Assembly: GCA_017500935.1 (NCBI GenBank)
Contig: JAFVXW010000003.1
Coordinates: 62,001 to 126,000, forward strand
DNA: 64,000 bases
Direction of reading: 5' to 3'
DNA from: Lachnospiraceae bacterium
GTDB lineage: Bacteria; Bacillota; Clostridia; Lachnospirales; Lachnospiraceae
Positions 1,271 to 30,133 of the stretch are shown here, piece after piece (positions within the stretch are counted from its first letter, which is position 1; every line of letters begins with the position of its first letter). The position numbers and the translations under genes were made by a program. The notes beneath the pieces were generated by a model. The model ran no database searches and was not told the origin of the DNA. It saw only the letters and a program-made list of their open reading frames with translations.

Positions 1271-1283
1271 AGGTGCCTCCAAT

Positions 1284-10425: not shown

Positions 10426-12123
10426 CTACCGTACTGTTGTGATATTATAATAAAGCAGGTCATCGGCATCATTTGCCTGATAACATAACTCATAGGAAAA
10501 CAGTTCTGTATCGATCACCTCTTTGTAGACAGCTTCCGCAAAATTAATATTTTTGATATAAGAATACCGGTAACTTGTCTGCGTTTGATCCTGTTGGGCA
10601 TATCTGTGTCCCTTATTGAGTTCCTCAAAAGTAATATTTCCGAATGCAGTGGGTGTACGCTGTCTGATATAGGAAATAGCAATACAGTCCTCTAAGTTTG
10701 TGGCTCCATTTATGGGGATATAATCAGTGTCCTTATCAAAAGGTGTCTCCAGTTTTTCTTTATAAACGGTTACGCCATCCACTGTAATACTTTTTAATGC
10801 CAGATCTTCTTCGTTAATCCACTCACTGTCATTGATAAAGTAATAAATCTTGTTTTCTGTTTTTACATAATCCTGCGGTTTGTCCTCATCAGGAAGATCC
10901 ACATTCAATGCTGCCAGCAGAAGTTCCTCTACAGCGTCAAGTTCTGTTTCTTCACTGCTTTCTTCTTCGGCAGATTTATCAACCACAGGCTCTGCAGAAG
11001 TATCCAGCTTTAATCCGTCTCCCACGCCCTCAGGCAGATACCAGCCGTTTCCTTCATCGGAATCACTGTTTGGAGCAATGTCTTTTGAAACGATCCTGAC
11101 AATACAATCTGTCTTCAGCAACAGATTGGCGGTTTCATAAACAAAACAGCTGCCTCCGTCATAGGTATAAAAAACCTCCGGATCATCCGCAAACATCGCG
11201 GTTACATCTTCCATCGACAAATTCAGGAGCGCTTCATAGGCCACATCACCATCAGCCACAATTCCTGTATAATACGGACGTCCGGCCTGCGTAAACAAAG
11301 TCCCCTCCCCCTGGGGCATCCCCATGAAAAACTCTCCTTCATATTTTTTCATGCCGTTTTCGTAATACAAGACACCGTTTTCATGATATTGTCCATTGAG
11401 ATAGGTTCCTTCGTAGATCAGCTTTCCCTCTTCCGTGTACTCCACACCGCTTCCGTTGTAAAAACCGCCTTCAAACTCTCCCTTATACCAGATAGAGCCG
11501 GAATCATAGTAAAGAACCCCTTCTCCTTCAAACTGATTATTCCCAAAAGAACCTTCGTACTTTTTACTCCCGTCGGGATAGTACATGATTCCAATACCAT
11601 CATATTTATTTTCGGCAAAACCGCCTTCATAAACAAGAACACCGCTCTGGTTATAAAGAACACCATTACCGCTGCACTGTCCCTTATCGATATCGCCTGT
11701 ATAAACCACTGCACCGTTTGCCGCGCGGATATTGGCTTTTCCGCTATATTCCGCCAGTTCCATATCGTCATAATCAAAATAAATATCTGTGACAATACCT
11801 GTAGTTGTTGTCACCGGTTTTTCCACCGGTTCCGCGATCAGTGAAAAATAGGCAAACACCAGAACACATGCACCTACGATCAGTGCTGTTACCAGCTTTT
11901 TAGATATCAGAAGTTTTCCGACTGTATAATAATCATCTTCTGATTTTGGTTTAAAATGAAACAGTTCCCTGAACTTTTTGATGACGGGAGCAACGATCTT
12001 ATTGGCGATCACATTGACATTCACCATCATCTGGAGCTTGCGCAGGAAATTGCGGACCGGATTCAATGTGAGAGCCTTAAGTCTGGATAAGACCGCTGTC
12101 AGCACTTTCAATATGTACTGCAT
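10426..12123 (-). CDS. Membrane-anchored MORN-repeat protein in the CIS operon
   Basis: 565 residues. A basic N-terminal region of about 75 residues is followed by one membrane helix (about 77-97). About seven MORN repeats follow (about 125-290; units such as YEGGFAENKYDGIGIMYYPDG and YEGEFFMGMPQGEGTLF), then an acidic linker (about 380-410, SSEETELDAVEELL) and a unique C-terminal domain of about 150 residues. Topology suggests a cytoplasmic N-terminus and an external repeat domain. MORN repeats commonly mediate membrane or protein contacts. It stands between the HAMP sensor and the cap gene with good ribosome sites, so it is part of the operon. Exact role unknown. Confidence 0.8.
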   Translation of the reverse strand: MQYILKVLTAVLSRLKALTLNPVRNFLRKLQMMVNVNVIANKIVAPVIKKFRELFHFKPKSEDDYYTVGKLLISKKLVTALIVGACVLVFAYFSLIAEPVEKPVTTTTGIVTDIYFDYDDMELAEYSGKANIRAANGAVVYTGDIDKGQCSGNGVLYNQSGVLVYEGGFAENKYDGIGIMYYPDGSKKYEGSFGNNQFEGEGVLYYDSGSIWYKGEFEGGFYNGSGVEYTEEGKLIYEGTYLNGQYHENGVLYYENGMKKYEGEFFMGMPQGEGTLFTQAGRPYYTGIVADGDVAYEALLNLSMEDVTAMFADDPEVFYTYDGGSCFVYETANLLLKTDCIVRIVSKDIAPNSDSDEGNGWYLPEGVGDGLKLDTSAEPVVDKSAEEESSEETELDAVEELLLAALNVDLPDEDKPQDYVKTENKIYYFINDSEWINEEDLALKSITVDGVTVYKEKLETPFDKDTDYIPINGATNLEDCIAISYIRQRTPTAFGNITFEELNKGHRYAQQDQTQTSYRYSYIKNINFAEAVYKEVIDTELFSYELCYQANDADDLLYYNITTVR

Positions 12124-12157
12124 GGAAACTCTCCTTTATTCTTTTATAATCCCGCTA

Positions 12158-14845
12158 TCATCCACAGCGGAAAATATAGTATTTTGCAATCTGATCTTCA
12201 GGATTATCCTGCAAAACCATCGCAAATAAATTCTTGGCTTCATACAGATAGCCTTCTTCAAACAGTTTGACTGCTTTTCTGAAATTGCTGTCTGAAATAC
12301 GGATCATATGTATCTGCTGTGCATCACGGTCATCATAACACTCATAGAAACCATTCGCCCAACTGTCTACACCCAGTCTTCCTACATACCGAAGTCCATA
12401 TTCTCCGGGATCTTTGATCTCCCGAATAGCCTCTGTAGTAATAAAAAGTCTGGTATCAAGCTCCAGAAACTGCTCTTTGCCTGTAAGGATTTTATCCATA
12501 TCCGGAATGATCGTCGCCGGAATATACTGTTTTTCATCTCCGCAGATTACAACACTTACCTCTGTCTTATGCAGAATAACTGACATATGTAAAGGAGTGA
12601 TTTCCTGCTCTTGTGCCTGTGCATTATAGGCATCCACATTGGCCAAAATCGTCAGCGCTGTCTGAATCGCGCTGTTTACTCCATTGGGACAGATCAGCAG
12701 AATCCCCGAAAGATTGCTGTTATCTACAATAGGCATTGCCCCCTGTTTTAGAGCCTGCTCATTGATCAGATTGAAAAAGCGGTTCATCTCCTTGGCCTTT
12801 TCCTGCAGACTGTCACTTCTTACCGAACTGCTCATCTGAATGGAAAGTAACGTATAGTTTCCTTTCATACAGGAACCCGGCATCAGATTTCCCAGATTAT
12901 CCTGTTTTAACATGCGGATCATGCTCATGGGCATAAACTTATAATAAATATCACTGAGATTCTTCAGATTCAGGATCTGCAGATCAATATCATCCGCCAT
13001 TTTGTTAAATACTCTGCTGATTCCTGCCAGTTCATCCTGTGTCTCAGGTTCAATACGAATATCTCTGTTGCCGTCCGCAAACAATTCCATGCCCTGCCGG
13101 ATTTCAGAAAGCGGCTGAAGGATCCTCATATACAAAGCTGTGAGAAGGACAGCAAGCACAATCAGGAAAGCTGCACATATCCAGATAAAATTACGGATAT
13201 ATATACTCTGGTAGGCATCTACTTTTGCAGTATATACACCGGTTTCATACAGATATACACTGCGCCCTGCGGTACCTCCTACAGGAGTTACACTGATAAT
13301 ACGCTCACCCATGTGATCTGTAATGGTTGCGGACTGCGCCATACCGCTGCGGGCCGCACGCAGATAAAGTTCTTCCAGTTTTGTATTGACATTGATGCTG
13401 ACCGGATAGAAACAGGGATTTTGCTGATCCACACCGGTATAAAGTTCGCCGTCTTCAAAATAGACCACTCTTGCATACAGATCCCGTCGCTGCATCTGCT
13501 CTTTTAAATACCGATAGTCCTCACTTACATAATCATAAGGATACTGCAGTGCATCAAAAGATTCCTGTCCAAAAAGCGCTGTCATCATATTCCCTTCGTC
13601 CAACACCTGCTTTTCATAGCTCTCTGTCACACTGCCCTCATAGTAGTAATACACCACAAGACCAAATATGGACATGGTCAGGATCATCAGCGGAAGAGCT
13701 GCCAGTAAAAGCTTGGCCAGAATGGTTTTTCCTCTGGTTATGCCTCTGTAAATGCTCCATGCTGCAAATGTGATCACCGCACAAACCGCAAGACCAGTCA
13801 AGGTATAACGAAGGATATTGATTGCAAGCTGTCCTGCCGAAAGATAAATCACATTATTTTCTGCCCAGACTCCACCATCCATACTGCAGAGAAGATATCT
13901 GCCTTCCGCATCCTTTACAACCGCTGTAAAATCATCCACGGACTGCATGGACATCAATGCGATATCAGCTGGCTTTATACTTCCCGCAAAACCTTCCGTC
14001 CCTTTTTTGACCAGACTTTCTGTGCCATCCTGAATATTCAGCTTCAGAATATCACCTGATTCGCCATCCTGTATATACACATAACCGGATTCCGCAAAGG
14101 CAAGATATAAAGGATACATCAATACATCCACCACACGGGCAGGATAGATTTCCTCCACCTTGTTTTCTGCTGCATGAAATACTTTGCCTGATTTAGAGAT
14201 ATAAGCGATATCGGTACCGTTTCCCACAGCCTGATATATGCCTTCTCCTTCCGCTAAAGGATAATATCTTTCTGACTTGATATTCACACTTCTGTCAGAA
14301 AGTGCTCCGAATTCAAATACCCGTCTTGCAGCAAGCGTTTCTGTTTTGTTTACCCCGATCACAGAAATTACATCACCGGATATATTCATCCATCCATAAT
14401 GCCAGTTTTCCTGCATGGACTTTTCAGCTTCAGGACTTTGCAGATTTGCTACATCCACTATGATCTTTCCGGGTAAAAGCTGGTTGAAATCATATACAAC
14501 AAGTTCCTCTTTTACCAGTTCACCGGTATACTCATCCAAGGCATTTCGAAGTACATATACTCTGCCGTCATCTGCCGCCTGCGCAGCCTGAATCTGATAC
14601 ACCATATCCTTTGCAGACTGTGCTGTTGTCACAGACTTTGTAATCCGGCCAGTTTGGTCCACATTGGCAATCACGATCCTGTCATTTTGATACCATGTCA
14701 CAATGGAATTTCCGTTTGCTTCATGACTGACTGTGTAAATCTGATCAACCGGTATTTTATAATTTGTAAAGGCCTGTATAAAGGCTGCTGTCAGGATCAC
14801 TGCAAATATGATCGCTGCCGGAATCCATTTTTTATTCTTCATCAT
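12158..14845 (-). CDS. HAMP sensor with degenerate class III cyclase domain
   Basis: 895 residues, four predicted membrane helices (about 7-26, 340-362, 374-402, 552-574). Residues 30-338 are beta-rich and propeller-like and lie outside. Residues 405-550 form a second external domain, possibly Cache-like. A HAMP segment follows (about 575-625, LQPLSEIRQGMELFADGNRD). Residues 660-840 align by eye with a class III nucleotidyl cyclase (KFMPMSMIRMLKQDNLGNL opening; final GLRYVGRLG, GFYECYDD), and a TPR-like tail (853-893) is typical of such cyclases. The metal-binding Asp positions are lost: the FSDI equivalent reads SIQM. It is therefore probably a receptor pseudocyclase rather than an enzyme. 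Confidence 0.8.
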   Translation of the reverse strand: MMKNKKWIPAAIIFAVILTAAFIQAFTNYKIPVDQIYTVSHEANGNSIVTWYQNDRIVIANVDQTGRITKSVTTAQSAKDMVYQIQAAQAADDGRVYVLRNALDEYTGELVKEELVVYDFNQLLPGKIIVDVANLQSPEAEKSMQENWHYGWMNISGDVISVIGVNKTETLAARRVFEFGALSDRSVNIKSERYYPLAEGEGIYQAVGNGTDIAYISKSGKVFHAAENKVEEIYPARVVDVLMYPLYLAFAESGYVYIQDGESGDILKLNIQDGTESLVKKGTEGFAGSIKPADIALMSMQSVDDFTAVVKDAEGRYLLCSMDGGVWAENNVIYLSAGQLAINILRYTLTGLAVCAVITFAAWSIYRGITRGKTILAKLLLAALPLMILTMSIFGLVVYYYYEGSVTESYEKQVLDEGNMMTALFGQESFDALQYPYDYVSEDYRYLKEQMQRRDLYARVVYFEDGELYTGVDQQNPCFYPVSINVNTKLEELYLRAARSGMAQSATITDHMGERIISVTPVGGTAGRSVYLYETGVYTAKVDAYQSIYIRNFIWICAAFLIVLAVLLTALYMRILQPLSEIRQGMELFADGNRDIRIEPETQDELAGISRVFNKMADDIDLQILNLKNLSDIYYKFMPMSMIRMLKQDNLGNLMPGSCMKGNYTLLSIQMSSSVRSDSLQEKAKEMNRFFNLINEQALKQGAMPIVDNSNLSGILLICPNGVNSAIQTALTILANVDAYNAQAQEQEITPLHMSVILHKTEVSVVICGDEKQYIPATIIPDMDKILTGKEQFLELDTRLFITTEAIREIKDPGEYGLRYVGRLGVDSWANGFYECYDDRDAQQIHMIRISDSNFRKAVKLFEEGYLYEAKNLFAMVLQDNPEDQIAKYYIFRCG

Positions 14846-14856
14846 CTTACTTTTCC

Positions 14857-15765
14857 TTATTCTTCATTGCCAAGATACACATCGCCGACATACTCCATGG
14901 CGCTGTAAGACACATTTCTGTCATATGCCCTCTGTGTGCTGATCCGCAGGTAAATCTGCCAGCCAGCATAAAGTATTGTCACCGTTACCAGCATCGTCAG
15001 CATGATCCTGGCGGGATTTCTGAATAAAGTATTTTTAATCCTGCGAAATGTTTTTTTGATCTGCCAGAAAAATCCCTGTCTTGCAATGGGACGATCCGGC
15101 ATGGAACGCAGCTGATTCATGATCTGTCCGAAAGATACAAAGGAATGATTCTGCACCTTCATCCAAAACAGCCTCAGTTCATCCGGATAATGATCAATCT
15201 GTCCGTGAAACCTGTCTTTCCAGGGCAGCTCCAGAATGGAAAATACCTGCTGTGTTAAAGGCTCCATAGAATCTCTTTCCGCAGAAAGAAGTTCTTCGCC
15301 TTCCGGATCAAAATCTTTGAAATCCAGAAAATAGTTGAGTGTTACGCTGCAGTCACTGCCGATATTGATATTTCTGGGCTGTAAAAGAAGTCTGCAGACT
15401 TCTCCTTCTATACCGGTTTCAGCCATTGCTCCTACAAGATTCATAGCTGCCTTTTTACATTTCACAAAATCATAGAGATAGATACTTCCCACTGTCTGCA
15501 AAAGATTCTCACTCTCGTAGTGAAACAGAAGCTTTAGCTCTCTGCCCACACTGAAAGACCCTACATAGTTTTTTGCATGAGAAAAAAGTTTTCCCTGGTT
15601 CATCTGTTCTGTGATGTATTTGCGGTGTGAGTCACTTTTTATGGAAATCATGGTATAAAAAGGACGCGCGCTGTCCCGGTTATCCCGGCACACCGTGATA
15701 TCGTTCACTTCATTTCTTAAAACCACTCTTACATTTTCCAGATGCATATTCATTGCGGGAACCAT
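14857..15765 (-). CDS. C-terminally anchored membrane protein of the CIS operon
   Basis: 302 residues: a soluble region of about 230 residues, a basic helix (QIKKTFRRIKNTLFR), one membrane helix (about 253-273) and a short external tail of about 27 residues. The soluble part (NYVGSFSVGRELKLLFHYES, VCRLLLQPRNINIG, YPDELRLFWMKVQNHSF) recalls the helical-lobe/anchor layout of EssB/YukC pseudokinases, but I cannot assign it to that family. It sits 11 bp before the HAMP sensor gene, so the pair may form one membrane complex. Ribosome site GGAGGT. Confidence 0.7.
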   Translation of the reverse strand: MVPAMNMHLENVRVVLRNEVNDITVCRDNRDSARPFYTMISIKSDSHRKYITEQMNQGKLFSHAKNYVGSFSVGRELKLLFHYESENLLQTVGSIYLYDFVKCKKAAMNLVGAMAETGIEGEVCRLLLQPRNINIGSDCSVTLNYFLDFKDFDPEGEELLSAERDSMEPLTQQVFSILELPWKDRFHGQIDHYPDELRLFWMKVQNHSFVSFGQIMNQLRSMPDRPIARQGFFWQIKKTFRRIKNTLFRNPARIMLTMLVTVTILYAGWQIYLRISTQRAYDRNVSYSAMEYVGDVYLGNEE

Positions 15766-15787
15766 GTCTACCTCCAGATATCGTCAA

Positions 15788-17566
15788 TTATCCTCTCGGA
15801 TTTGCGGAGACGATTATGTATGCATGTGCAAAGATCCCTGGATCACCGATACAGGAAACTTTCACTTCATATACACCTTCCGCAGTAGGTGCTGTATAAA
15901 TACCATTGTTGTCAATGCGGCCTCCGGCTGCATCCAGAACCTCATAACGGCAGGCCTGTTCAGGAATATTCACAAATCTGGGAACAATCTGTACAATACC
16001 TCTGGGTGCTGTTGTAAGGGTATCGGGAGCGATCACCAGCATGCCCTGATTCTCTTTTGTTTTATAAATGTTCTTGCCGCTGTCCTGTACCCTGCATGCG
16101 TACCAACGGATCCGAACACTGGTACGAACCACTTTTGTTTTGGGCTTTACAGCCACAATAAAGGTTCCGCGGTCAGGAAGAAGTTTGACACCGCAGGAAA
16201 ACTGAAGCTGTCTTTCAGTCTGCTCCGTATTTCCAAACAATTCCGCATCGCCGAATATGATCTCTTCCTTTACTTCTCCATTGTCACGGTTTAAGATTTC
16301 AACCGCAGCTTCCACATAAACCGGACCTTCGCCAAGTCCGTGCATGATTTCTTCGGAATAACATACCTTTCCGGTATCCCCCACTGCTCCAAGGGAAAGA
16401 TCAAACGTACCTGTCACAAACGCATTATCTGTGACTGCAGGTTCTGCCGCTGTTACAATATGTCCGGCAGATTCTTTTACGATCGCCTGCTGCGTATTAT
16501 TCACAGAAGGACAGTATTCCTTTAAGTCCTCAAACAGTTTTAGCTGTGCCGCAGAACTTACATATTGTCCAAATGGAACGCCTTCCAGACGGCTTAACAA
16601 TACCCTGTCTCCCATTCTGATCACGTGCAGTTTTGCCAGATAAATGATGGTATCGTAATCATTCTCGATCACGGTATCCATGGCTGTTTTAAAACTGTCA
16701 TTAACAATTGCTGTAAGTAGATTTTCCTCCAGACAATTTATCATAACAGGAGTTACAGGTTCAGTTACATATCTGCTTTTGTCCTTACGTACCTCAAGAT
16801 TCTGTACTTTAAGATAAAATGTTTTTAAAAATCTGACTTCGTCTTTTAATGCCAGTTCTGTTTTAATGGTTTTCTTTTCGTAACGGTCAAGCTTTACGTG
16901 GTCCAGTTCCACCAAAAACTTCTGTTCACTTAAACCATCTATATTTACGACATATTTTACAGAGATCAGTTCCTGTGTCTGACGCTTTTTCTCAATCGTG
17001 GTATAAACCGTAAGATTTCTGTCTTTCGGCAGTACTCTGAGCACCTTATTGGTGATTCTGCAGTCTTCATCTTCATATAAAACAGTTTCCGTCAGCCAGC
17101 TGTCAACTTTTGCAGGAACCGCACTGCAGCTGTCCTGATCGATCAGAGAAAGCTTATACCCTTCTTTTACGTGATTATATGCACTCTCGCTTTCCTGCCC
17201 TTCTTCCTGCATCACTGCATATACCTTTTCATCAGGCTTTTCCATATAAGAGATAGCCAGATACGCAATATCTGAATGCAGATTCTGAACGCCATCGATC
17301 GTAGAAAGCTTCACCACTTCCGTTTCAGGCACCACGATCTCACGTCCGCCGCCGTCAATGGCAAAACCAGCCTGCAGGATCAGCGCAGTCTCATCTGCTG
17401 CAACCACTTTAAGTCCTGAAACAATACCACTGCCATGAAGCATCAGATTTCCCAGGCGACGCTTATCATTCATATATCCCTGTTCCATGGAAAAATCTCT
17501 GGAAGTCAGAAGCTTTCCATAATAATAATTGTTTCTGTCATAAGAATAAAACTTACGATTGTTCAT
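15788..17566 (-). CDS. Fibre/baseplate-associated CIS protein
   Basis: 592 residues, no membrane segment. The N-terminus NYYYGKLLTSRDFSMEQGYMNDKRRLGN, followed by LMLHGSGIVSGLKV, matches a type of protein repeatedly seen in CIS clusters (recollection of the pattern: a Gly-Lys-Leu-Leu motif, then HG-G-V-GL). The middle (about 200-380) is helical. The C-terminal about 150 residues form beta domains ending in an Ig-like or big-domain segment (ITAPTAEGVYEVKVSC type). Presumably a baseplate appendage or receptor-binding part. It begins 3 bp after the stop of the 1236-aa protein gene. Confidence 0.65.
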   Translation of the reverse strand: MNNRKFYSYDRNNYYYGKLLTSRDFSMEQGYMNDKRRLGNLMLHGSGIVSGLKVVAADETALILQAGFAIDGGGREIVVPETEVVKLSTIDGVQNLHSDIAYLAISYMEKPDEKVYAVMQEEGQESESAYNHVKEGYKLSLIDQDSCSAVPAKVDSWLTETVLYEDEDCRITNKVLRVLPKDRNLTVYTTIEKKRQTQELISVKYVVNIDGLSEQKFLVELDHVKLDRYEKKTIKTELALKDEVRFLKTFYLKVQNLEVRKDKSRYVTEPVTPVMINCLEENLLTAIVNDSFKTAMDTVIENDYDTIIYLAKLHVIRMGDRVLLSRLEGVPFGQYVSSAAQLKLFEDLKEYCPSVNNTQQAIVKESAGHIVTAAEPAVTDNAFVTGTFDLSLGAVGDTGKVCYSEEIMHGLGEGPVYVEAAVEILNRDNGEVKEEIIFGDAELFGNTEQTERQLQFSCGVKLLPDRGTFIVAVKPKTKVVRTSVRIRWYACRVQDSGKNIYKTKENQGMLVIAPDTLTTAPRGIVQIVPRFVNIPEQACRYEVLDAAGGRIDNNGIYTAPTAEGVYEVKVSCIGDPGIFAHAYIIVSANPRG

Positions 17567-17569
17567 CTG

Positions 17570-20500: not shown

Positions 20501-21280
20501 AGAAATCACACGAATCGTCAAGGTTTCCTGACTAATCCAGGATGGCGGAATCTCAAGAGTATTACCGGTTCCAAAAGTCTGCATGGAAGCATTTGCTTTA
20601 ATAAAAGTTTCTCCATTTACTGTGATATCACCATCTTCACCTTTTTGTGCCCTGTTGAAACTGGGCGCAGAACCGTCCACTGTATAAAAAAGTGTTCCTT
20701 CTCCGATAAATCGCAGGATGTCTCCGGCCTTGAGCAGTTTCATCTCTGTATCGGAAGTCTCCGGTGACACCAAAATCGGGGATGCATTGTCATAGAATGA
20801 AATCCGATATTCATCCAGTCTTTGTTCTTCTCCCAAAAACTGCTGTACATACAGATAACATGTTTCACCTGAGGTCAGCGCTCTGCTTAAAATGATCTGC
20901 TGTCCGGCTTCATATTTTGTTCCCTCTGTATTCAGGAGCAAACCTTCCGTGTCTGATAATTTCATGTCGTAAAACTTATAATAAATCTCCGTTTCACTGT
21001 CTGCCGCATAATTATCAATATATGCCTGCACACCGTCCATTACCTTCCAGACACTTCCCTGTGAGTTGATGACCGTTCCGTTATTGGTTACAAACCGCAG
21101 CTCATCCATCGCTCTGGATGTGAACAGGAAAACTCCCGTCACACCCAGCACTGCGATCAGAGTAACTGCAAATCCCAGAATCATCTGAAAAGAACGGAGC
21201 CTGCGCTTCATTTTTTTTCTGTATGTAGTTTTTTTGCGTTTTCTTTGTTTACCGCAATTTCCATTTTTTTCAGTTAACAT
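17570..21280 (-). CDS. Giant doubly anchored surface protein with nine CHB_HEX_C-like repeats
   Basis: 1236 residues. A strongly basic N-terminus (RKRKKTTYRKKMKRR) precedes a membrane helix at about 33-54. The large external part contains about nine repeats of 85-100 residues marked by (I/L)YYTTDGS-P signatures, the chitobiase/beta-hexosaminidase C-terminal (FN3-like) type. A conserved pre-anchor beta domain follows, then a second membrane helix (about 1208-1230) and a KSGKRKG tail. Both ends are thus in the membrane with a long external loop. There is no sortase motif. It is paralogous to the next gene upstream (21284-27442); the pair are separated by 3 bp. Confidence 0.82.
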   Translation of the reverse strand: MLTEKNGNCGKQRKRKKTTYRKKMKRRLRSFQMILGFAVTLIAVLGVTGVFLFTSRAMDELRFVTNNGTVINSQGSVWKVMDGVQAYIDNYAADSETEIYYKFYDMKLSDTEGLLLNTEGTKYEAGQQIILSRALTSGETCYLYVQQFLGEEQRLDEYRISFYDNASPILVSPETSDTEMKLLKAGDILRFIGEGTLFYTVDGSAPSFNRAQKGEDGDITVNGETFIKANASMQTFGTGNTLEIPPSWISQETLTIRVISACDGKEFSSVATFRYILGKDQAQNPTIAPETTAEEPVLVPDGTTASLSTQTDGGTILYTLNGQVPSYEIKQENGIYQLITGENTIVYSDRITVTGQPGAMFTVTAVTIKFSAADGEIMKASEPVQYVYRFAERQIAAAPESSPKSGTAVSLKDGVYLTTETAGAKILYTTDGTSPAYSFDQETKNLVLSGTTKCYGVETGYILIDAQNGAEAGKDFLIQAKTIVIDDNTGEKVFEDSPVVQFSFPVNDLETVAAPTVTPATVENKPTVVEEGDKILLSTTTAGARIYYTTDGSAPVLDENGSPRNETTILYEGQKAITVPKGSGYITITAFAVKEEMNDSAVVQFTYQYPQIIAPPYSKPAEGTVTVNTEVELASLDKDALIYYTLDGSNPTQTTGKLYSEPILLTSSVQIKAICVVNGISSAVRTFHFSVSPVLQPPAPSLASGSVITSGTVIKLSAADGAEILYTVDGSNPKSGSPLSGDTAVLTGKPGETISLITYAKGADYSDSQTATYVYTISNYENGIFVTPASGTKVKEGDLIRIETDVTNAAIYYETNGDIPNVSSPRGNQVLVPASGTEETFLLNAVAVPVGSNFPNAVGSFQYPYLIELAAPKASIPNMAVLLKNQEVELTAEEGDIYYTLDGTSPDTFASLYADKIIVDKPMTIQAFAMNEEGAKSSISTFTYTFADQVGKPVFSVQGGEVETGSRLTMFSDTQGAAIYYTTDGTLPDPENPGNLYTYSGAVSITKPVHIKAIAVKDKMTSSEVVSATFTVKEKETEILKEDSEGKRAASDGNRLMSRRSFMDSDSGPTYTDFVLKHPMTGIILSAKEGLIPVEAQIEVTSVPADETLDKSVQEAAGKEHIAVAAYEVSVKRNGEQVVLSEEVEVGFPIPQQYVNSAIYVASVDEEGNVNLFDTRRDDDMAYVFTDRFGRYCIVGATDVADEEKAFDFGLLGAAATALLLGLGYFLIRKSGKRKG

Positions 21281-21283
21281 CTG

Positions 21284-24200
21284 TCAGGATACCTCTTGTT
21301 TTTTCGTTCTGATGATCATGACTGCTCCCAATCCGGTCAGCAAAGCAGCACAGGCAGTTAAAAGCAGAATCAGATTCAGATCCCATGTATTGTTTTTATC
21401 CACACGGGCTCCCACAATACCAAAATTCTTTAAATGTGCAACATTGGCATACGCATATCCGTTTTCACGTCTTGTTTCGATTACCTGTATCTGTCCTTTT
21501 TCATTGCTGTAAATGATAGACACATCCGCATTCTTATAGTCATCAGGAAGAGGAAGTGCAATTTCCACCTCTCCTTGGGGCTGAATCCGTTTTCCGTTGA
21601 GATAAAGCGTAACCTCATAATTGTTTAAAAACTCATATTCGTCGCCCAGAAGATTTTTTACACTCTTCTGTGCATCTTTGGAAATCGCAATTTCCTTTGT
21701 TCCCAAAGTCATCTTGTCAGAAAGGCTTGCATCGCTGCCAGTCAGAATCGCACCATTATTGAAGTCTCTCAATACAACATTACCCGAAAGAGCATTATCA
21801 GAAACCCCCGGACGTCTTTCTTCCAGCTGTTCCGTATTCAGTTCCGCAGGACCGATGTTTTCTTCGGCTTCCTTTTGTGCCTGCTTTTCTTCCTGTGCAG
21901 GTATATTATCCACGGTATAGGAAAGTTCAAGAACATTACTGTTTTGCATGCCATTCAAAGCTGCGATCGCTTTTATGGATACATTTCGGTTAATTCTGAT
22001 GCCATCGGCAGGGTTATACAGGAAAGTTCCTTCCTTGGCTTTGGGATCAGGAGTTGATCCATCAGTAGTATAATAAATATCAGCCTGTGCCTGATCTGCA
22101 GAAAGCCATATCACTTCACCTGCCTGAAGATTTCCGGAATCTTTAGACGCAGCCAGACCGGATACTGCTTCCGCAAAGGTATAGGAAAAGATACTTACTT
22201 CACTGTTTTCGTAATTTTCTTCCACAGCGATGGCTTTCACCACCATATCCTTATAGATCACAATAGGATATTCATATACATAACTGTTTTTATCCGGATC
22301 GCTGCCGTCAACGGTATAGTAAATCTTACCTTTATTAGCTTTTAAAACCAGATTGGTGGCTTCCGTCATTACCGTACCGCTTAAAACAGACCCATTGGGC
22401 GCTGCCAGCTGTTCCATCATTTTATACTGGAAGTTGGCATAACTGCCGGTCATTTCTGTTCCCGGAGCAACCGCAACAGCCTTTAAAATCACCATACTGC
22501 CGGGTTCTCCCGTGATCAGCACATTGTTTCCTGCTATCCCCTCCGTAATGGGATTTCCGGAAGCCAATGTAAAGTAAATAGTACCGCCGGTCACATCTGT
22601 AGTCAAATGGATCTTGTCTCCTTTGGAAACGACAGCCCCGCTTTCCACATCTGCTGTAACACCGCCCACATACTGACTGATCTGATAAGTCAGAGTAACC
22701 ACTTCACTTGTGGTTGCGCCGGTCTTTTTGGTACATACATTGACTTTAACGGTATCACCGGGATTTCCGGTGAGTACCACGCTGTTTCCGCTGTTTACCA
22801 GTGCATTCTGATCATCGGAAGGGTCGGAACCATCAGTGGTGTAATATACTGTACCATCTGCTGCACTGAATATGATCTTTGTCCCGGAAGGAACAATGGA
22901 GCCGCTGCTGGTGCTGACAGAAGGTTTGGCCATCTGCTGTGCCAGTGTATATTTGAGCGTCACAATCTCGCTGGATTCTCTGTTATACACCGCAAACGCC
23001 TTGATCACGGTATCACGGGTGATCACAATCGGTGCTTTATCGCTGAATACAGGGCTGGACTGGGTAGGATCCTTTGGTGTTTCCCCATATGCGATCTCAT
23101 AATAAATTACAGCATCTTTTGTGGCACTCATCAAAAGCACCTCTGTATTGGCTTTTACAGTGCCGGAGGAAGGATTTCCGTAAGGTGCTCCCACCGCATC
23201 CGCATAAGTATAAACAAATTCAACCACATCACTGTCAGCCATATCCGGTTTTACCGCAATAGCCTTGATCACAAAATACCCGCTTCCTTCCGTAACCGAA
23301 ATGGGATCAGACGGGTCATACTGCTTTGTAGTTCCCTTGCAGGTGTAAGAAATATTGTTTCCGCTGACTGTCATAGTCACTTCCGGCACATTACCGTCTG
23401 TGGTATAGAAAATCTGTGCATCCGGCGTGGTCGCAGAGAGAATGATCTTATCTTTCGCAATCACCGTATTGGATGTGCCGGGTGTGGCTGTCACGGCTCC
23501 CACTACCTCCTGATCTGCGATCTTAAAGGTAAAGCTAACCATTTCACTGTCTTTCATTTCCGCTTTGCGGGCAAATGCTTTTACCGTAAAATAGCCGCCG
23601 TAAATACCATCTGCGGTGATCACATTGGTATATTTCTCACTGTTTTCATCCGGAACTGTTCCGTCTGTTGTAAAGAAAATCTCTGCATCTGAGGTTGCAC
23701 AGTTTAATACGATCTTGTCACCTTTCTTTACCACAGAAGGGTCTGCTCCCGGTGATTCGGGATATGCGGTAGGTGCTTCTACCTGATTCTGCTGTGCAAT
23801 CTCATAGGTAAATGTTACTGCAGGACTTGCCTTTTTCTTATTGTTAAAACGAAGCTCTGCTTCCTGCTGTGATTCATCCAGTACAGGACAAGCCAGCATC
23901 TTGATCGTGGCTGTGGAACCGTAGGAAAAACCGGAGGCTTCCGTAATCTGAATACCGGAATCCACATGGTACAGTTTTGTTTCTCCAAGCGCCGTTATCT
24001 TTGCGTCATCCTGAATCTGGATCTGCGGTTCCTTTCCATCTGTAGTATAGAAAATAACCGTTTGAGGATCACTGGAAAAATGCAGGACTCTGTTCATGGC
24101 AATATTACTGCCGGGGGCAAGAAGCGCAATAGGAACTGCCACTGCGCCCTGTTCTTCCACATAGTACACGTATACATCATTGGAAGAAGGACCGTATCCG

Positions 24201-27200
24201 TCTGCAAATACAATAGCTGATACATAAGAATTCTGGTTTTCATGGGACATGTCAAAATACAGATCGCCGTCCTGATAGACTCTCAGGCTTTCATCCTCCA
24301 TATTTGTAATATCTGCATCCACATCGTCCATTTCATACCAGACATCATTGCATTTTACATACAGCTTTTTCGTCTGATCATCTTCACAATAGATAATCGC
24401 CCCCATTGTATTGACATCTGTACGGGCATCCAGTTCTTCGCTTCTGCTCTTGTCACTGATCATCAATGGTACAATAGGGTCACCTGTCAAATTATAGAGA
24501 ATTAAATCTGTATTGGTTTTGCCGGTAATATAAATCCTGCTCTCCACCGCAATTGCAGTAGGTTCACCAGAATCAGTGGTTTTAACAGTTGTCGGAGATA
24601 ATGAGGGCACTGCCGCATTATCCATAATAGTATATACATATTCCTGAACAAATGTAGCATAACGCTGCTGATAAGGAAGCTTGCTGTCCGGAAGTTGACT
24701 TCCGTCCGGATGTGTCTGTTCTTTATTCACAACAGGCTCTGCATAAACATAATATCTGCTGCCCACCGAACCAGAAATCTTCTGCGCTGCTTCCAGATAC
24801 CAAGGATCTTCTTTGGTACCGGAACCAGACCAGTCAGAATATGTAGCAACACCGGTCATTCCCAGTAAGGTATTCGGAAGCTTTGTCAGTTTTTTATCGC
24901 TGACCAGAATGCGCATTTCTTTATATGGATATTCCGCTTCTTTTCCATTTCCTACCTGAATCAAAACCTGGGATCCATCAGGGATTCTGCTGTTATTCTC
25001 AGGAACAGTAGTCAGAAGGGTATCCTTGATAAAGGTTATAAGTTCGTATTCATACAGCTTCTGTTTTACTACACCATCTTTTTCCGCTTCAGCCAGTACA
25101 TACAAATGAATCAGATTGGAATCTTCCTGAATGATCATCTCTTTTGATAATGTCATCTCTGCTGCATTTACATAACCAATCGTAATCGTGGCCGGATCCA
25201 GATAATCAGCTTTTGAAGGATCCTCTATCTGCAACCCGGATTTATCTCCATAAAAAAGCTTCATCTTATAATTTTTACCGTCAGGCAATGTCAGCTTCCA
25301 TTTTGTGGTCCCCAACGCATAAGCGTTACTGCTTTCATGGGAAATAAATTCTGTATCCGTTTCTTTCTTTAAAGATAATTCAGGTTTATCAAGCATCGTA
25401 TCAATTTCTGTGTATGTCCTGGTTGAAAGACCACTCCAGAAAATCACATCATTTTTTAGCTCGTCATCATTACCGTTTAAAATAATTTTTAATATAGCTT
25501 TAACAACGGTAGGGTCTCCTGAATATACAGGACAATTTTCTTCCGCTGACACTATATATGCATCTGTTCCTGATGTGGTCTTTCCATTTAAAACCGCTGT
25601 AGGGGTTTCCATAGTCTGGGGATCAGATTCTTCACCTGTTGTTACATAGAGTTCAACTCTTGAATTTACCGCAAAAACAGTTTCATTATTCCACCCCTGT
25701 AAAATACCCTGGACATCAATTCTGTTATTCGCACCTGTAGGTTCCAGTATTTTAGGCGGTGCAAATGTAATCAGGCCAGATACCCCCTCCAGTTCGGGAG
25801 TGAGTTGATAATTATCCTTCAATAAATGAAGATCATATTGCTGATCATAAAACCAGTTGATTATTTCTCCATCAATATCATTTGCTGTAAGCTGCTTATC
25901 TTCGATATCAGATTCTCCGCGGACAGTAATTTCTTTAGTCGTTACACCTTCTGTACTGGTTTCCGAATAGTTTAACCTGACAGTGTATTCCGGATCGTCA
26001 TAAGCAATAATCTGCATAGGATTTTTGGGTATCACTTCCCCCAGAAAATAGGTATTTGATTCACTATATGAGCCAGAACCTTCTTTTCCCCATACATCCT
26101 TTATTGCTCCAACAGCCCGCGTACCATCTTTATGCAGAATACAATCCTGAATGGTCACATTTCCATTTCCGATATCATACCCATGGATACCGCCCACCAT
26201 ACCAAGAATATCTCCTTGGATTGCCATACAATTTATAATCTCTTCGAAATATTCTGGTTTGGAGCTGCCTCCGGATACACTTTGTTCAGGTATACCATAA
26301 CTATATTCTTCATTTAGATTGATACAGGCCTGTATTACATTTCCGCTGCCCACTGCCTGACCGGCAAACATACCGCCAGCTATCCAGTTGATACTTTTTC
26401 CGTCTATTGCTGAATTAGCCTCAATATTAACATTTATATCACTTTGACATCTTTTTACTGTGACAGAGTTTTCCATGCATCCAACAATCGTACCTACACC
26501 AACCTGTAATGTAGCATTTGTTAAACTGCTGGAATCATATAGTCTTATAAAAAAATCTTCTGGACTATCTTTCTGTGCAAATACTGATATATCTTCAAAC
26601 ACTGATTGATCAGCACCGCCGCATACAATACCTACACCACCACCTGCATGTGTCCCTTCGGTATCATTAATTACTCTGAAACTACTGGGGCTTTCTGCAT
26701 AAACAATTCGAATATTTCTGATTATTGCATCTTCCACACGCGAAAACATCAGACCATAATTCGTCACTCCTCCACCTTCTCCATCAAACAGTGAAGGAGG
26801 AAGCACAGCTCTGGTTGTCTGTGCTTTTTTCTTAAGAGTGATCGTATGCCCCTGTCCGTCAAAGGTATCTCCCTGAAACAACCATCCACTACTGTATTCA
26901 TACTGATTTTTTTCATTATTCAGAAATGCTTTGGTTTTACTGAAGCTATTATTGAAACCATATTCAAAATCATTTCCTAATTTAAATGTGATATCTGCAT
27001 TTCTGGTAACTGTAGAAATAATATCCGTACCATCCTCATTCTGTCCGGACACAAAAGAATGACTTCTTTTTAAGCCGGAGAACACATACTCCAACTGTTC
27101 TGCTTTCGTAATATATGCAACATAATCATCACCTTCTTTATACAGCGACAATCCAATATCATCAGGTGTCTTTGCATCATCATGATAAAATGGCAGTATT

Positions 27201-27442
27201 GTTGTTCCATCTGAACTCAGCACTTCCCAACCTACTGCTTGCGAAGCTGCCTGTGTATCCCGATTCAAAATCAGTGCCACACCAACCACCGCCATCAAAA
27301 CGCACAAAATCCCTGCAATACTGTACAGCTTCCACATTTGTACAGTGTTACGGCGCTTTTTTCTTCTATGTACTTTTTTCTTCGTTTTCACATGCTGTCT
27401 GGGCGTCATCTCCGACGATTCATTCTTATAATAAAGTCCCAT
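21284..27442 (-). CDS. Giant doubly anchored surface protein, beta-helix plus CHB_HEX_C-like repeats
   Basis: 2052 residues. A basic N-terminus (KTKKKVHRRKKRRN) is followed by a membrane helix at about 38-59. Residues about 110-470 look like a right-handed beta-helix (FDGQGHTITLKK, NYGLMFSRVEDAIIRNIRIVY, GGGVGIVCGGADQSVFEDI). A mixed beta region follows, then about eight chitobiase-C-terminal-like repeats with YYTTDGS-DP signatures in the second half. A pre-anchor domain similar to that of the 1236-aa paralogue, a C-terminal membrane helix (about 2023-2044) and a short basic tail complete it. Such repeats often bind or space surface polysaccharide; here they may dock the CIS at the envelope (inference). 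Confidence 0.82.
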   Translation of the reverse strand: MGLYYKNESSEMTPRQHVKTKKKVHRRKKRRNTVQMWKLYSIAGILCVLMAVVGVALILNRDTQAASQAVGWEVLSSDGTTILPFYHDDAKTPDDIGLSLYKEGDDYVAYITKAEQLEYVFSGLKRSHSFVSGQNEDGTDIISTVTRNADITFKLGNDFEYGFNNSFSKTKAFLNNEKNQYEYSSGWLFQGDTFDGQGHTITLKKKAQTTRAVLPPSLFDGEGGGVTNYGLMFSRVEDAIIRNIRIVYAESPSSFRVINDTEGTHAGGGVGIVCGGADQSVFEDISVFAQKDSPEDFFIRLYDSSSLTNATLQVGVGTIVGCMENSVTVKRCQSDINVNIEANSAIDGKSINWIAGGMFAGQAVGSGNVIQACINLNEEYSYGIPEQSVSGGSSKPEYFEEIINCMAIQGDILGMVGGIHGYDIGNGNVTIQDCILHKDGTRAVGAIKDVWGKEGSGSYSESNTYFLGEVIPKNPMQIIAYDDPEYTVRLNYSETSTEGVTTKEITVRGESDIEDKQLTANDIDGEIINWFYDQQYDLHLLKDNYQLTPELEGVSGLITFAPPKILEPTGANNRIDVQGILQGWNNETVFAVNSRVELYVTTGEESDPQTMETPTAVLNGKTTSGTDAYIVSAEENCPVYSGDPTVVKAILKIILNGNDDELKNDVIFWSGLSTRTYTEIDTMLDKPELSLKKETDTEFISHESSNAYALGTTKWKLTLPDGKNYKMKLFYGDKSGLQIEDPSKADYLDPATITIGYVNAAEMTLSKEMIIQEDSNLIHLYVLAEAEKDGVVKQKLYEYELITFIKDTLLTTVPENNSRIPDGSQVLIQVGNGKEAEYPYKEMRILVSDKKLTKLPNTLLGMTGVATYSDWSGSGTKEDPWYLEAAQKISGSVGSRYYVYAEPVVNKEQTHPDGSQLPDSKLPYQQRYATFVQEYVYTIMDNAAVPSLSPTTVKTTDSGEPTAIAVESRIYITGKTNTDLILYNLTGDPIVPLMISDKSRSEELDARTDVNTMGAIIYCEDDQTKKLYVKCNDVWYEMDDVDADITNMEDESLRVYQDGDLYFDMSHENQNSYVSAIVFADGYGPSSNDVYVYYVEEQGAVAVPIALLAPGSNIAMNRVLHFSSDPQTVIFYTTDGKEPQIQIQDDAKITALGETKLYHVDSGIQITEASGFSYGSTATIKMLACPVLDESQQEAELRFNNKKKASPAVTFTYEIAQQNQVEAPTAYPESPGADPSVVKKGDKIVLNCATSDAEIFFTTDGTVPDENSEKYTNVITADGIYGGYFTVKAFARKAEMKDSEMVSFTFKIADQEVVGAVTATPGTSNTVIAKDKIILSATTPDAQIFYTTDGNVPEVTMTVSGNNISYTCKGTTKQYDPSDPISVTEGSGYFVIKAIAVKPDMADSDVVEFVYTYADAVGAPYGNPSSGTVKANTEVLLMSATKDAVIYYEIAYGETPKDPTQSSPVFSDKAPIVITRDTVIKAFAVYNRESSEIVTLKYTLAQQMAKPSVSTSSGSIVPSGTKIIFSAADGTVYYTTDGSDPSDDQNALVNSGNSVVLTGNPGDTVKVNVCTKKTGATTSEVVTLTYQISQYVGGVTADVESGAVVSKGDKIHLTTDVTGGTIYFTLASGNPITEGIAGNNVLITGEPGSMVILKAVAVAPGTEMTGSYANFQYKMMEQLAAPNGSVLSGTVMTEATNLVLKANKGKIYYTVDGSDPDKNSYVYEYPIVIYKDMVVKAIAVEENYENSEVSIFSYTFAEAVSGLAASKDSGNLQAGEVIWLSADQAQADIYYTTDGSTPDPKAKEGTFLYNPADGIRINRNVSIKAIAALNGMQNSNVLELSYTVDNIPAQEEKQAQKEAEENIGPAELNTEQLEERRPGVSDNALSGNVVLRDFNNGAILTGSDASLSDKMTLGTKEIAISKDAQKSVKNLLGDEYEFLNNYEVTLYLNGKRIQPQGEVEIALPLPDDYKNADVSIIYSNEKGQIQVIETRRENGYAYANVAHLKNFGIVGARVDKNNTWDLNLILLLTACAALLTGLGAVMIIRTKKQEVS

Positions 27443-27474
27443 TTTTCCTCACTTATGCTTTCGAAGCGTATTTG

Positions 27475-29220
27475 TCAAAACACCATTGTGTCATAAAGCT
27501 CCATCAATGCTTTCTGATCGGGCTTTAACGCTCTGTTTACTTTTCTGTATTCATTGGCTATACCACTTAACACATCCTGCATGGTCACACAGCCGGATCC
27601 AGAGGCTGCCATCCACGCACTCTGCATCGCCGCATTGCGGATCGCCGCGCCTGAAAGTTCAAAATTGTCTGCCAGAAGCTCCCAATCAAGCTCTGCGGAA
27701 AGCGGCGTTTTTTCCGGAAACACCTTTTCCCAGAGCTGCCTGCGCAGTTTTGCATCCGGCATCGGAAAATTGATCATATAGGTAATTCTTCTGCGAAAAG
27801 CCTCATCAAAATTCTGCAGAAGATTTGTAGTCAATATACAGATTCCGTCACTCTCTTCTATACGCTGCAGCAGATACGCAGTTTCCGCATTTGCATATTT
27901 ATCCTGCGCATCACTGACTTCATTTCTTCTTGAAAAAAGTGCATCCGCTTCATCAAAAAGCAGAATTCCTTTTAATTTCTTTGTCTGTTCAAAAACCTTT
28001 GCAATATTCTTCTGGGTCTCACCTATGTATTTGCTGATCAGCGAAGACAGATCCACTCTGTACAGAGGAAGCTTCAGTTCAGCCGCAATCACCTGCGCTG
28101 CCATGGTCTTTCCTGTGCCGGGTGCACCATAAAAAAGAATGGAAATCCCGTTTCCGTAAGCATACTTTTCAGAAAAACCCCAGTCACATAATACAGTATC
28201 CCGTTTTTTAAGCATCTGACAGATCTGCTCAAGCCTTCTGCTGTGTTCTGCCGGCAGACACAAATCCTGTAAGGTCTGGTTTGCATTCAGACGCCTGATT
28301 CCTTCTGTATCTGCATCTTCTTTTGCATGACGCTGTAAAATCCTTCTGAACATCTCCTCTGTTAATGAATGGTTTTCTCTGGCAGACATAAGTGTATATT
28401 CCAGTTCCAGATCTGAAAGAATACGTTTCATTTCTGCTATGGAAACCTGCTTTTTTACAAGCTTCTGAGCAAATATATGCAACCCGGCTATTATATCTTT
28501 GTCTGGATTGTTATGCTTCCAGTCATTCCAGTATGCCTGTCGATCTGCTTCATTTGTCATCGGAATGCTGCGAACCAGACAGGAAAGCTTATCCGTCAGT
28601 CTGCTGATTTCTTTTGCAGAAGCTGCAAGCACTGCAATATCCAGTCCTCTTTTACATAGATCAGCAGCTTTATCTGCAATTTTATCCGAAAATGTCATCT
28701 TACGGATATCCAGACAAAGAATCGCATCATATAGAACTGCCGTCAATAATAATTCCGTATCCATATTCAGCATGCCATCCCAGAAAAGAATGGGACGGGC
28801 AGTACGGTAAGCAACCTGAGAAATCAGAAATCTGCTGCCTTCTCTGCCGGTAAGAACTACACATTTTCCCTGCTTCCTATCCTGATCAAGTCCAAGGAAG
28901 CAAGTCAGCTCTTCTGTTAATTCTCCTGCTCCATACACTTTTTCCTGTGCCGGAAAATCCAGTATAAGGCCTTCCGGCAAACCACCATTTATGCTGTCAG
29001 GCACTTCTCCCTTTATATACGAAACAAATGCGGGATACAAAAAAACATCCCTATCTGTATGGCCAAAAACAGGAGGCAGTATCTGTATATCTTCTTTAAG
29101 GTCACCAATAGCCGCTGAAATCTCCAGCGGTCCCTTAAGCAGCTTATATGCCAGATTTTGCTGTTCCTTTGTCAAAGAAAAAAGCCTGCAGGCTTCTTCC
29201 CAATACTCCCTCTTGTACAA
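27475..29220 (-). CDS. AAA+ ATPase of the CIS (Afp15/Pvc15-like)
   Basis: 581 residues. A C-terminal AAA+ module carries Walker A GAPGTGKT (about 364-371), Walker B ILLFDEADALF (about 417-427), sensor 1 ILTTN and the arginine stretch FRRRITYMINF. The N-terminal about 330 residues form a less conserved domain, which also matches the family pattern. Every eCIS cluster carries such an ATPase; it is thought to assist assembly. The start is TTG 29220, seven bases after AGGAG; no upstream ATG fits. It lies 52 bp after the 286-aa gene. Confidence 0.92.
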   Translation of the reverse strand: MYKREYWEEACRLFSLTKEQQNLAYKLLKGPLEISAAIGDLKEDIQILPPVFGHTDRDVFLYPAFVSYIKGEVPDSINGGLPEGLILDFPAQEKVYGAGELTEELTCFLGLDQDRKQGKCVVLTGREGSRFLISQVAYRTARPILFWDGMLNMDTELLLTAVLYDAILCLDIRKMTFSDKIADKAADLCKRGLDIAVLAASAKEISRLTDKLSCLVRSIPMTNEADRQAYWNDWKHNNPDKDIIAGLHIFAQKLVKKQVSIAEMKRILSDLELEYTLMSARENHSLTEEMFRRILQRHAKEDADTEGIRRLNANQTLQDLCLPAEHSRRLEQICQMLKKRDTVLCDWGFSEKYAYGNGISILFYGAPGTGKTMAAQVIAAELKLPLYRVDLSSLISKYIGETQKNIAKVFEQTKKLKGILLFDEADALFSRRNEVSDAQDKYANAETAYLLQRIEESDGICILTTNLLQNFDEAFRRRITYMINFPMPDAKLRRQLWEKVFPEKTPLSAELDWELLADNFELSGAAIRNAAMQSAWMAASGSGCVTMQDVLSGIANEYRKVNRALKPDQKALMELYDTMVF

Positions 29221-29272
29221 TCTTTACTCCTGTTCTGAATGCCAAAAGCTACTTTATTTCAAATATCTCCGA

Positions 29273-30133
29273 TTACTTTTTCCTTTCGTCATCGGATGCC
29301 TCCTGCTGCATACCGTCTCCTTCTGCATCGATCACAGAAATCTCTTCCTGCATCGCATGTCTTCTCTGCTCCCGGTAATATTCAAACATTCTCTTTTTAT
29401 CAATGTCAAAGGCGTAGTTTAATTTGCGGATAAACGCTCTTTTCTGTGAATCCTTTCTTGCAAGGATCGCCTGCAGCAGGGCGGATTCTTCAGAGGCTTC
29501 CCGCATCCGCTCATGAAGCTGCGCGTCCTCACTGCGCTCATTTTTCCGTGCATTTTCAGAAACTTTCTTCTGCATCTGCACGATAGCTTCCTTACGCAGT
29601 GAAAGCTGTGACAATTCCTGTTCGCTGCTTAAATAAGGCATTGTTTTCAGAATTGTTTCCATATTTGTATTATGCAAATACGGTTCCATGGAACGCACTG
29701 ACCATGGTTTATTTTCTGCCTTTTCCAAAAGCACCGAAGCATTCTGCCATCTTCCGGAAACCCAGGCACGGTTTTCATTTCCTTTCTTCTGCTCGGGCTT
29801 TTGCTGATATTCCTTCATAGATCTTTGATACCGGGAATTTACCGTATCGTAGATGTTGGTCTTCATATTGGCAAATACAAAGCTTCTGGCACGGTTGGGA
29901 TTATAACCCATCTGAACCTTTCCATAAAAGGTTTCCAGCTTTAACAGGCGATCGCACGAAAACAGGTGTCCATAATCCTGAAATTCGTAATAGCCTTCAA
30001 TACGTTCATGTTCTTCCCAGGAATTCAATGTGACATGTACAGGAGCACTCAGACGCGCAAACGTTTCCCGCATCTGTTCTTTTTCCTTTAATCTGGAACT
30101 GTCCTTCTTTTTTTTCGCATCAAACTCTGCCAT
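29273..30133 (-). CDS. First gene of the CIS operon, charged protein of unknown function
   Basis: 286 residues, very rich in Lys, Glu, Arg and Gln, without signal peptide or membrane helix. Residues about 35-110 (YYEFQDYGHLFSCDRLLKLETFY, GYNPNRARSFVFANM) look like a folded domain. Residues about 175-270 are helical and probably coiled coil. No family recognised. As the first gene after the promoter region and directly before the ATPase it may be an assembly or regulatory factor. The ribosome site before ATG 30133 is weak (AAAGGG about ten bases away). Confidence 0.7.
   Translation of the reverse strand: MAEFDAKKKKDSSRLKEKEQMRETFARLSAPVHVTLNSWEEHERIEGYYEFQDYGHLFSCDRLLKLETFYGKVQMGYNPNRARSFVFANMKTNIYDTVNSRYQRSMKEYQQKPEQKKGNENRAWVSGRWQNASVLLEKAENKPWSVRSMEPYLHNTNMETILKTMPYLSSEQELSQLSLRKEAIVQMQKKVSENARKNERSEDAQLHERMREASEESALLQAILARKDSQKRAFIRKLNYAFDIDKKRMFEYYREQRRHAMQEEISVIDAEGDGMQQEASDDERKK

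Follow-up and report, generated by a model that had tools for sequence, protein, structure and literature searches.

An operon in the draft genome of a Lachnospiraceae bacterium raises the question of how a contractile injection system (CIS) might act from within a Gram-positive cell with its thick wall. The operon was found in a stretch of 64,000 nucleotides (hereafter the window; assembly GCA_017500935.1, contig JAFVXW010000003.1, positions 62,001 to 126,000, or G000:C2:62001-126000 in our notation). The draft comprises 3.56 Mb in 87 contigs, and is 95.07% complete and 5.67% contaminated. In Streptomyces, a studied Gram-positive case, such a system relies on one membrane protein and ends in the death of the cell (PMC12237407). 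The CIS operon of the window includes a block of six genes, at positions 10426-27442 of the minus strand, which is conserved and may encode a complex for docking, for gating and for crossing the wall. The best reading of this block is an envelope-docked CIS, similar to a type VI secretion system (T6SS) and gated by a membrane receptor. We put the probability at roughly 0.6 that the CIS of these presumably monoderm Clostridia would be attached through a dedicated complex to the inner side of the cytoplasmic membrane, from where it would fire outward through the envelope of the cell.

The operon opens with the gene of a helix-turn-helix (HTH)/LuxR regulator (starting at 31503), followed by genes for a 286-amino-acid (aa) protein and an AAA ATPase, and then by the six-gene block. 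The structural genes stand behind the block in the order Pvc16_N, a conserved gene of unassigned family, DUF4280, sheath, two tube proteins, a 770-aa protein, CIS_tube, hub, spike and gp25. Successive gaps from the ATPase gene to the Pvc16_N gene are 32, 3, 3, 22, 11, 34 and 15 bp (3-34 bp within the block), and purine-rich stretches precede the start codons of the block. The initial annotation had described six tightly packed genes at this place, encoding among others two doubly anchored giant repeat proteins, a C-anchored protein, a HAMP receptor with a pseudocyclase and a MORN membrane protein, and each of these descriptions, coordinates included, agrees with the features reported below.

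Envelope docking is supported by two members of the block, since both co-occur with CIS genes and one of them carries the type of N-terminal domain found in Cis13, the protein that anchors the CIS of Anabaena. This 592-aa protein (15788..17566, minus strand) matches NCBIfam CIS13_fam over residues 8-145 (E 1.1e-20), the N-terminal domain only, and reaches 74 bits against the 370-bit equivalog cut-off of the family (NF053767); it thus appears to share an adaptor domain with CIS13 proteins and not to be a full member. A Cis13-type N-terminus is present in 59 of 60 relatives, and positions 18-82 of the family profile, from the same N-terminal region, weakly resemble Anabaena All3314/Cis19 (E 0.0056). 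A Pfam search assigned the protein to no family, and its long C-terminal part is perhaps immunoglobulin-like, given weak Pfam matches in a few relatives. By hydropathy (threshold for a membrane segment, 1.6) the protein of the window has no transmembrane (TM) segment; some relatives have one stretch above the threshold.

The next gene encodes a 302-aa protein (14857..15765, minus strand) with an N-terminal domain predicted to be cytoplasmic, a TM segment at residues 254-272 with a basic N-terminal side and, outside, a short tail that carries a conserved IG motif. This segment scores 1.55, just below the threshold, and the matching place exceeds it in all 19 mapped relatives. A profile of 20 relatives matches the kinase PAK1 in the PDB (E 5e-5), and one of 64 relatives matches NEK1 (E 8e-5); these kinase matches span 84-97 residues, and a Pfam search of the protein itself gave no family. 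The catalytic Asp of kinases belongs to the HRD motif. At the corresponding position (residue 127 in the protein of the window) 63 of 64 relatives have L, V, I, M, A or C, which argues against an active protein kinase, and we therefore call the protein, as a weak assignment, pseudokinase-like.

The remaining proteins of the block are of receptor or surface type by prediction. The 895-aa HAMP receptor (12158..14845, minus strand; HAMP E 9e-9) has four TM segments, two predicted outside domains, the HAMP domain, a class III cyclase-like domain and a C-terminal tail. The profile of its family gave a match to the class III adenylate cyclase 2w01 (E 6e-8). Class III cyclases have characteristic metal-binding Asp and Asn/Arg positions; in the alignment of the family profile with 2w01 and CyaB, the catalytic positions appear not to be kept, as expected of an inactive cyclase. 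The MORN protein (10426..12123, minus strand; Pfam MORN E 1.4e-16) has a single TM segment at residues 78-96 by hydropathy, and its MORN repeats are predicted to lie outside the membrane in view of the basic N-terminus and the positive-inside rule. Two giant proteins of 2052 aa (21284..27442, minus strand) and 1236 aa (17570..21280, minus strand) contain CHB_HEX_C_1/Fn3_assoc repeats (Pfam E 1e-60 to 1e-74), seven in the former and 7-8 in the latter. Both show the same charge pattern, with a basic N-terminus, a hydrophobic segment (residues 41-59 and 34-52, respectively), the repeats, and a C-terminal hydrophobic segment (2025-2043 and 1210-1228) with a basic tail, and are predicted to be exported, C-anchored surface proteins.

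From gene content and order, domain matches, predicted topologies and the association with CIS genes, we infer a set of physical contacts, a docking site, a firing direction and a trigger. The N-terminal domain of the Cis13-type protein would bind the baseplate, and this protein, which has no TM helix of its own, would pass the particle on to the product of the neighbouring gene, the bitopic pseudokinase-like protein. Outside the membrane, the two giant C-anchored proteins would form, together with the MORN protein, a part reaching across or beyond the wall, and the HAMP receptor would sense an outside signal and license docking or firing. Since the cyclase domain has no catalytic residues, this signal would probably be relayed by conformation or binding and not by a cyclic nucleotide.

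The distribution of these proteins across genomes was examined in a family sample of 200 genomes, each of a different genus, 20 of which have CIS_tube. The kinase-like profile matched 37 of the 200 genomes at E 0.001. Strong matches (E < 1e-20) were found in 19 of the 20 CIS_tube-positive genomes and in none of the other 180 (Fisher p 1e-25), i.e. in 19 of the 200 sampled genera of one family. One further genome (G006) has a 31-residue kinase-like fragment at a contig end beside a 592-aa gene, and 17 other matches are weak (E 1e-6 to 8e-4) and cover mostly the kinase-like part. In the twentieth CIS genome (G138), CIS_tube survives only as a remnant interrupted by two stops, and the surrounding 20 kb gave no CIS match. 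Strong matches to the 592-aa protein occur in 22 genomes, namely the same 19 CIS genomes and three incomplete ones (G006, G146 and G163; 67, 68 and 87% complete), with 13 further weak matches. The receptor gave matches in 54 genomes at E 1e-5; its cyclase part was covered in 15 of these, 14 of them among the 20 CIS genomes and the fifteenth being G125, which shows no CIS, and an iterated model found divergent copies in two more genomes (G054 and G076). Within the genus of the window, a strong kinase-like match is present in 3 of 13 genomes, G000 included. The membrane proteins of the block had been expected to co-occur with CIS genes, and not to have homologues mostly in other genomes. This expectation is borne out for the kinase-like protein and, with the three incomplete genomes added, for the 592-aa protein, as it is for the 1236-aa protein, long matches to which (E < 1e-100) are confined to G000 and G086, both with a CIS, among 80 genomes searched (the 20 CIS-positive ones and 60 others). 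It holds in part only for the receptor, which is less exclusive.

In a phylum sample of 398 genomes, CIS_tube was found in 17 genomes, 16 of them over the cut-off, and kinase-like matches in 19, with strong ones in 6 of the 17 CIS_tube-positive genomes and in none of the 381 others. A seventh kinase-like gene, lacking a detectable TM segment, was revealed in G544 by a local profile at its locus. Three CIS_tube neighbourhoods (G200, G500 and G539) look phage-like, and another CIS_tube gene (G366) lies on a short contig. In G346 and G507, the Cis13-type gene is followed by an exported protein, by eye of substrate-binding type, and a MORN gene lies on the opposite strand. At L235 (5634-6860) and at the locus of G507 (L244), such an exported substrate-binding-like protein is encoded by the next same-strand gene behind the Cis13-type gene, followed in turn by a HAMP-matching protein with about 13 TM segments. 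The membrane block hence marks one part of the CIS of Bacillota, not all of them. The initial annotation had proposed a Clostridial CIS variant; the block is real, and is common among Clostridial CIS instead of being a single odd variant.

Related loci were collected by scanning GTDB contigs with the alignment of the 592-aa family, which yielded 398 relatives; the best 80 of these 398, biased towards near relatives, were used. Gene presence was counted by six-frame searches with hidden Markov models (HMMs) built from family loci; as identical rows show, three or more of these family loci are themselves among the 80. Usually, the 592-aa gene is followed by those of the kinase-fold-like protein, the HAMP receptor with its dead cyclase and the MORN protein, in this order. 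Where at least 1 kb of sequence follows the 592-aa gene, 75 of 76 loci have a kinase-like gene, and where at least 6 kb follows, all 57 have MORN and HAMP genes, the HAMP count being the softest since its iterated HMM takes in other HAMP receptors. CIS structural genes, Pvc16_N counted, are found at 53 of the 80 loci, and at 42 of the 47 whose flanks span 5 kb or more before and 9 kb or more behind; at the other five, the flank probably ends before the structural genes. The notion of the block as a peculiarity of the window's genome was rejected because it recurs at these loci.

The exported part, unlike the core just described, is exchangeable. In the clade of the window (20 labelled rows and one row cut by a contig end; support 99 in a quick tree), one or two giants precede the 592-aa gene. 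In a sister clade, other exported proteins replace them: two genes after MORN encode proteins of about 680 and 900 aa. The former (L096:14490-16538 and relatives, in Clostridial CIS loci) has an OEP/TolC-type domain in 26 of 27 members (best E 1.2e-14), with matches to TolC structures at E 6e-5, and the latter shows weak Cu_amine_oxidN1 matches. None of the 80 loci holds both giants and a TolC-like protein, as expected of exchangeable envelope parts, and the giants mark the window's subclade. The TolC-like protein is present at full length in 10 of the 200 family genomes (nine CIS genomes and G006), with seven further weak matches. Its label requires 14 changes on the tree, partly because contig ends hide the gene, and its history is unsettled. 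That Gram-positive lineages should have a TolC-like protein encoded in a CIS operon is unexpected in itself. It was suggested earlier that the CIS is held at the cell envelope by a surface anchor; genome evidence supports the docking, while the surface part proves exchangeable.

Several observations weigh against envelope docking by this module, or against parts of it. The kinase assignment is weak, with E near 1e-4 over about 90 residues: PAK1 drops to E 0.003 with the 64-member alignment, and no kinase family appeared among the 25 listed of 39 Pfam families when the 64 members were scanned singly at E 1, so that the assignment relies on profiles. One Peptostreptococcaceae locus (L183) has the adaptor without a kinase-like gene. 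Four Bacillota CIS (G385, G296, G581 and G510) have a Cis13-type gene and no match to the membrane block in the stretch read, so that a Cis13-type N-terminus by itself would not imply membrane docking. The 295-301-aa gene behind the Cis13-type gene in these four was considered as a TM-less pseudokinase, a candidate rejected for want of a profile match; by eye, we take these genes to encode glycosyltransferases. The receptor was not seen beside the module in G085 and G176, G104 has only a HAMP-type gene 22 kb away, and G125 (C30, L110) has a receptor relative in a genome where CIS_tube was undetected. The receptor is therefore not an obligatory part of the module, and its family may serve other partners too. 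Finally, a third arrangement, a clade of 20 rows of the 592-aa protein, shows neither giants nor TolC-like protein by labels, and a wall-spanning partner may thus not be universal.

If the CIS is docked, what would it be for? It is tempting to speculate that monoderm Clostridia own a trans-envelope, type-VI-like secretion system built from an extracellular CIS (eCIS), in which Cis13-type adaptor, pseudokinase-like anchor and receptor would form a gated basal complex, and interchangeable wall-spanning parts, TolC-like proteins in one clade and giant C-anchored repeat fibres in that of the window, would steer the needle across the thick wall and leave the producer alive. This fuller proposal is a tentative one, with the odds somewhat against it. 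The same module could instead recruit cytoplasmic particles upon envelope stress perceived by the HAMP receptor, and have them fire into the cell's own membrane, leading to regulated cell death. The bitopic membrane protein CisA is needed for contraction in cells and for the induction of cell death in Streptomyces (PMC12237407), and a dead-cyclase receptor together with a LuxR-type regulator would suit a stress switch; however, the giants, the MORN protein and the TolC-like proteins of relatives are predicted to lie outside, which is hard to explain if the sole task were to pierce the membrane from within, and we consider such self-killing unlikely.

Less probable still is that the block controls expression or the cell surface as a passenger of the operon, with particles assembled in the cytoplasm and released by lysis as in classical eCIS. 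GerE (LuxR-type) regulators adjoin 25.8% of eCIS loci (PMC8213781), so that signalling genes near a CIS are usual, and the repeat unit of the giants is common to surface-type proteins, being present in 46 of the 80 genomes searched. Against this stand the absence of strong kinase-like matches from all genomes lacking CIS_tube in both samples, the kinase-like gene that follows the Cis13-type adaptor at nearly every locus, the location of the set between structural genes in the window, and the lack of any matched lysis family among the operon proteins searched, very small frames being outside that search. A conserved membrane block within the operon likewise speaks against a freely released eCIS. 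An immunity block, whose surface proteins would protect the producer from its own CIS or that of kin, would account for exported proteins that differ between subclades, yet the constant part (kinase-like, MORN and receptor proteins) is predicted to be largely cytoplasmic or receptor-like, and its genes are surrounded by structural ones, not placed beside an effector, and we regard this explanation as very improbable.

Docked CIS as a kind are known, but the parts found here were not found described for any CIS in the literature searched, which left out most subscription journals and bioRxiv. The closest parallel is the thylakoid-anchored CIS (tCIS) of Anabaena, where Cis13 anchors the CIS to the membrane through its TM helix and an extension of Cis12, and where 9 of 14 CIS observed were free-floating once the TM domain of Cis13 had been deleted (PMC8894136). 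The likeness lies in the Cis13-type adaptor domain, the N-terminal region of the 592-aa family also resembling Cis19/All3314, and in a CIS held on a membrane inside the cell, as is proposed for the present one. Anabaena Cis13 has a putative TM helix of its own, which the 592-aa protein lacks, so that it does not qualify as a tCIS protein in this sense, and a separate bitopic protein follows it instead; and receptor, MORN or wall proteins are not among the tCIS parts described in the excerpted text (PMC8894136). An anchor of Cis13 type has also been proposed for T6SSiv and gut Bacteroidales (PMC12210884).

In haloarchaea, T6SS-like and contact-dependent action is reported for two CIS that include a conserved membrane protein; their anchor is not fully resolved, a six-TM protein being the candidate, and the nearest relatives of haloarchaeal Cis11 come from Bacillota (PMC11566945). 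The H. borinquense CIS resembles the present one in its conserved extra membrane protein, but for Hbor_38620 six TM helices are predicted, with a cytoplasmic domain some 150 residues long, whereas the anchor here is bitopic. The Streptomyces CIS with CisA shares the Gram-positive setting and a bitopic membrane protein, CisA being required for firing and the role here being putative. The N-terminus of CisA is described as largely unstructured, and its outside domain as solute-binding-like (PMC12237407), unlike the kinase-like inside domain and short outside tail of the window's protein. EssB/YukC of type VIIb secretion also has a cytoplasmic pseudokinase domain followed by one TM helix (PMC9600267); its 140-residue extracellular domain is lacking here. 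Assignment of the 302-aa protein to EssB/YukC (PF10140) was rejected, as the Pfam model YukC matched nothing in G000 (E 0.001), and the 34 profile matches of the kinase-like family at E 0.1 did not include an EssB chain. No TssJLM family of canonical T6SS (i-iii) was found among the Pfam matches of 30 proteins covering the cluster. With classical eCIS (Afp, PVC, MAC) the operon shares sheath, tube, hub, spike, gp25, baseplate J, Pvc16_N and AAA proteins, and this set in one cluster, with a tube of gp19 type, places it in the CIS/eCIS superfamily; we know of no such membrane block in classical eCIS. The kinase-like gene is offered as a marker to predict docked versus released CIS in Bacillota, and the question is testable in cultured gut commensals. 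Among cultured commensals, the module is present in Lachnoclostridium sp. An196 (L127, of the window's clade), Clostridium sp. MD294/ASF356 (L145, of the TolC-like type) and Petralouisia muris (L189, of the clade with neither outside part).

The other genes of the operon, all on the minus strand, are as follows. The regulator (30265..31503) combines HTH_17 and LuxR/GerE domains (GerE E 2.5e-13). The 286-aa protein upstream of the ATPase (29273..30133) gave no match in Pfam and NCBIfam searches and has relatives at 3 of the 80 loci, and the AAA+ ATPase gene (27475..29220; Pfam AAA E 2e-28) has a TTG start. Behind the block lies the Pvc16_N gene (9832..10410; E 2.4e-29), the product of which we take to be a cap or terminator, adjoined, as in relatives, by a conserved CIS gene of unassigned family (9137..9835), whose likely ATG start at 9835 overlaps the Pvc16_N stop. 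These are followed by genes for a PAAR-like DUF4280 protein (8749..9135; Pfam E 1.8e-35), sheath (7003..8724; Phage_sheath_1 E 5e-19), inner tube (6517..6969; Phage_T4_gp19 E 7e-41), a second tube protein (5411..5845; Phage_T4_gp19 E 2e-15), a 770-aa protein without Pfam family (3070..5382), CIS_tube (2414..3070; PF19266 E 6e-26), hub (1284..2387; Phage_GPD E 1e-9), spike (488..1282; Phage_base_V E 9e-22) and a gp25-type protein (45..467; E 7e-23). A frame of about 123 aa lies between the tube genes (6034-6417), without a Pfam match over cut-off, and frames of 120-123 aa occupy the matching place in many related loci. Scans of positions 5000-24900 gave 38 promoters against 39.6 expected, i.e. 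chance level, and an uninformative 18 terminator-like sites where 14.6 would be expected.

To the left of the window, the operon continues for another 10 kb or so (stretch L004), where two baseplate-J-type genes (one by Pfam, the other by similarity to the first), a gpI-like gene (by eye, with no Pfam match), a second AAA ATPase gene and a gene for a PI3/PI4-kinase-like protein (L004:9076-10845, minus strand; E 3e-6) are found. The last, at the 3' end of the operon and adjacent to this ATPase gene, is the likeliest candidate effector. The earlier statement that no toxin or lysis gene is visible in the window is consistent with the Pfam matches of 40 window proteins, among which such families are absent (frames right of 56426 and small frames being outside the search), but the candidate effector lies in this left extension. 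A second CIS may be present in the same assembly: contig C21 (L114) has genes of 592-aa, kinase-like and receptor type, its 592-aa protein grouping among the TolC-like-type rows of the tree, and C51 (L005) has CIS_tube. The two contigs presumably belong together as one system, which could be foreign given the 5.67% contamination. To the right of the CIS operon (window positions 34074-36263 and 50502-53691) are two pyruvate formate-lyase (PFL)-like/glycyl-radical genes, one of them beside a radical SAM gene, and genes of GH43 type.

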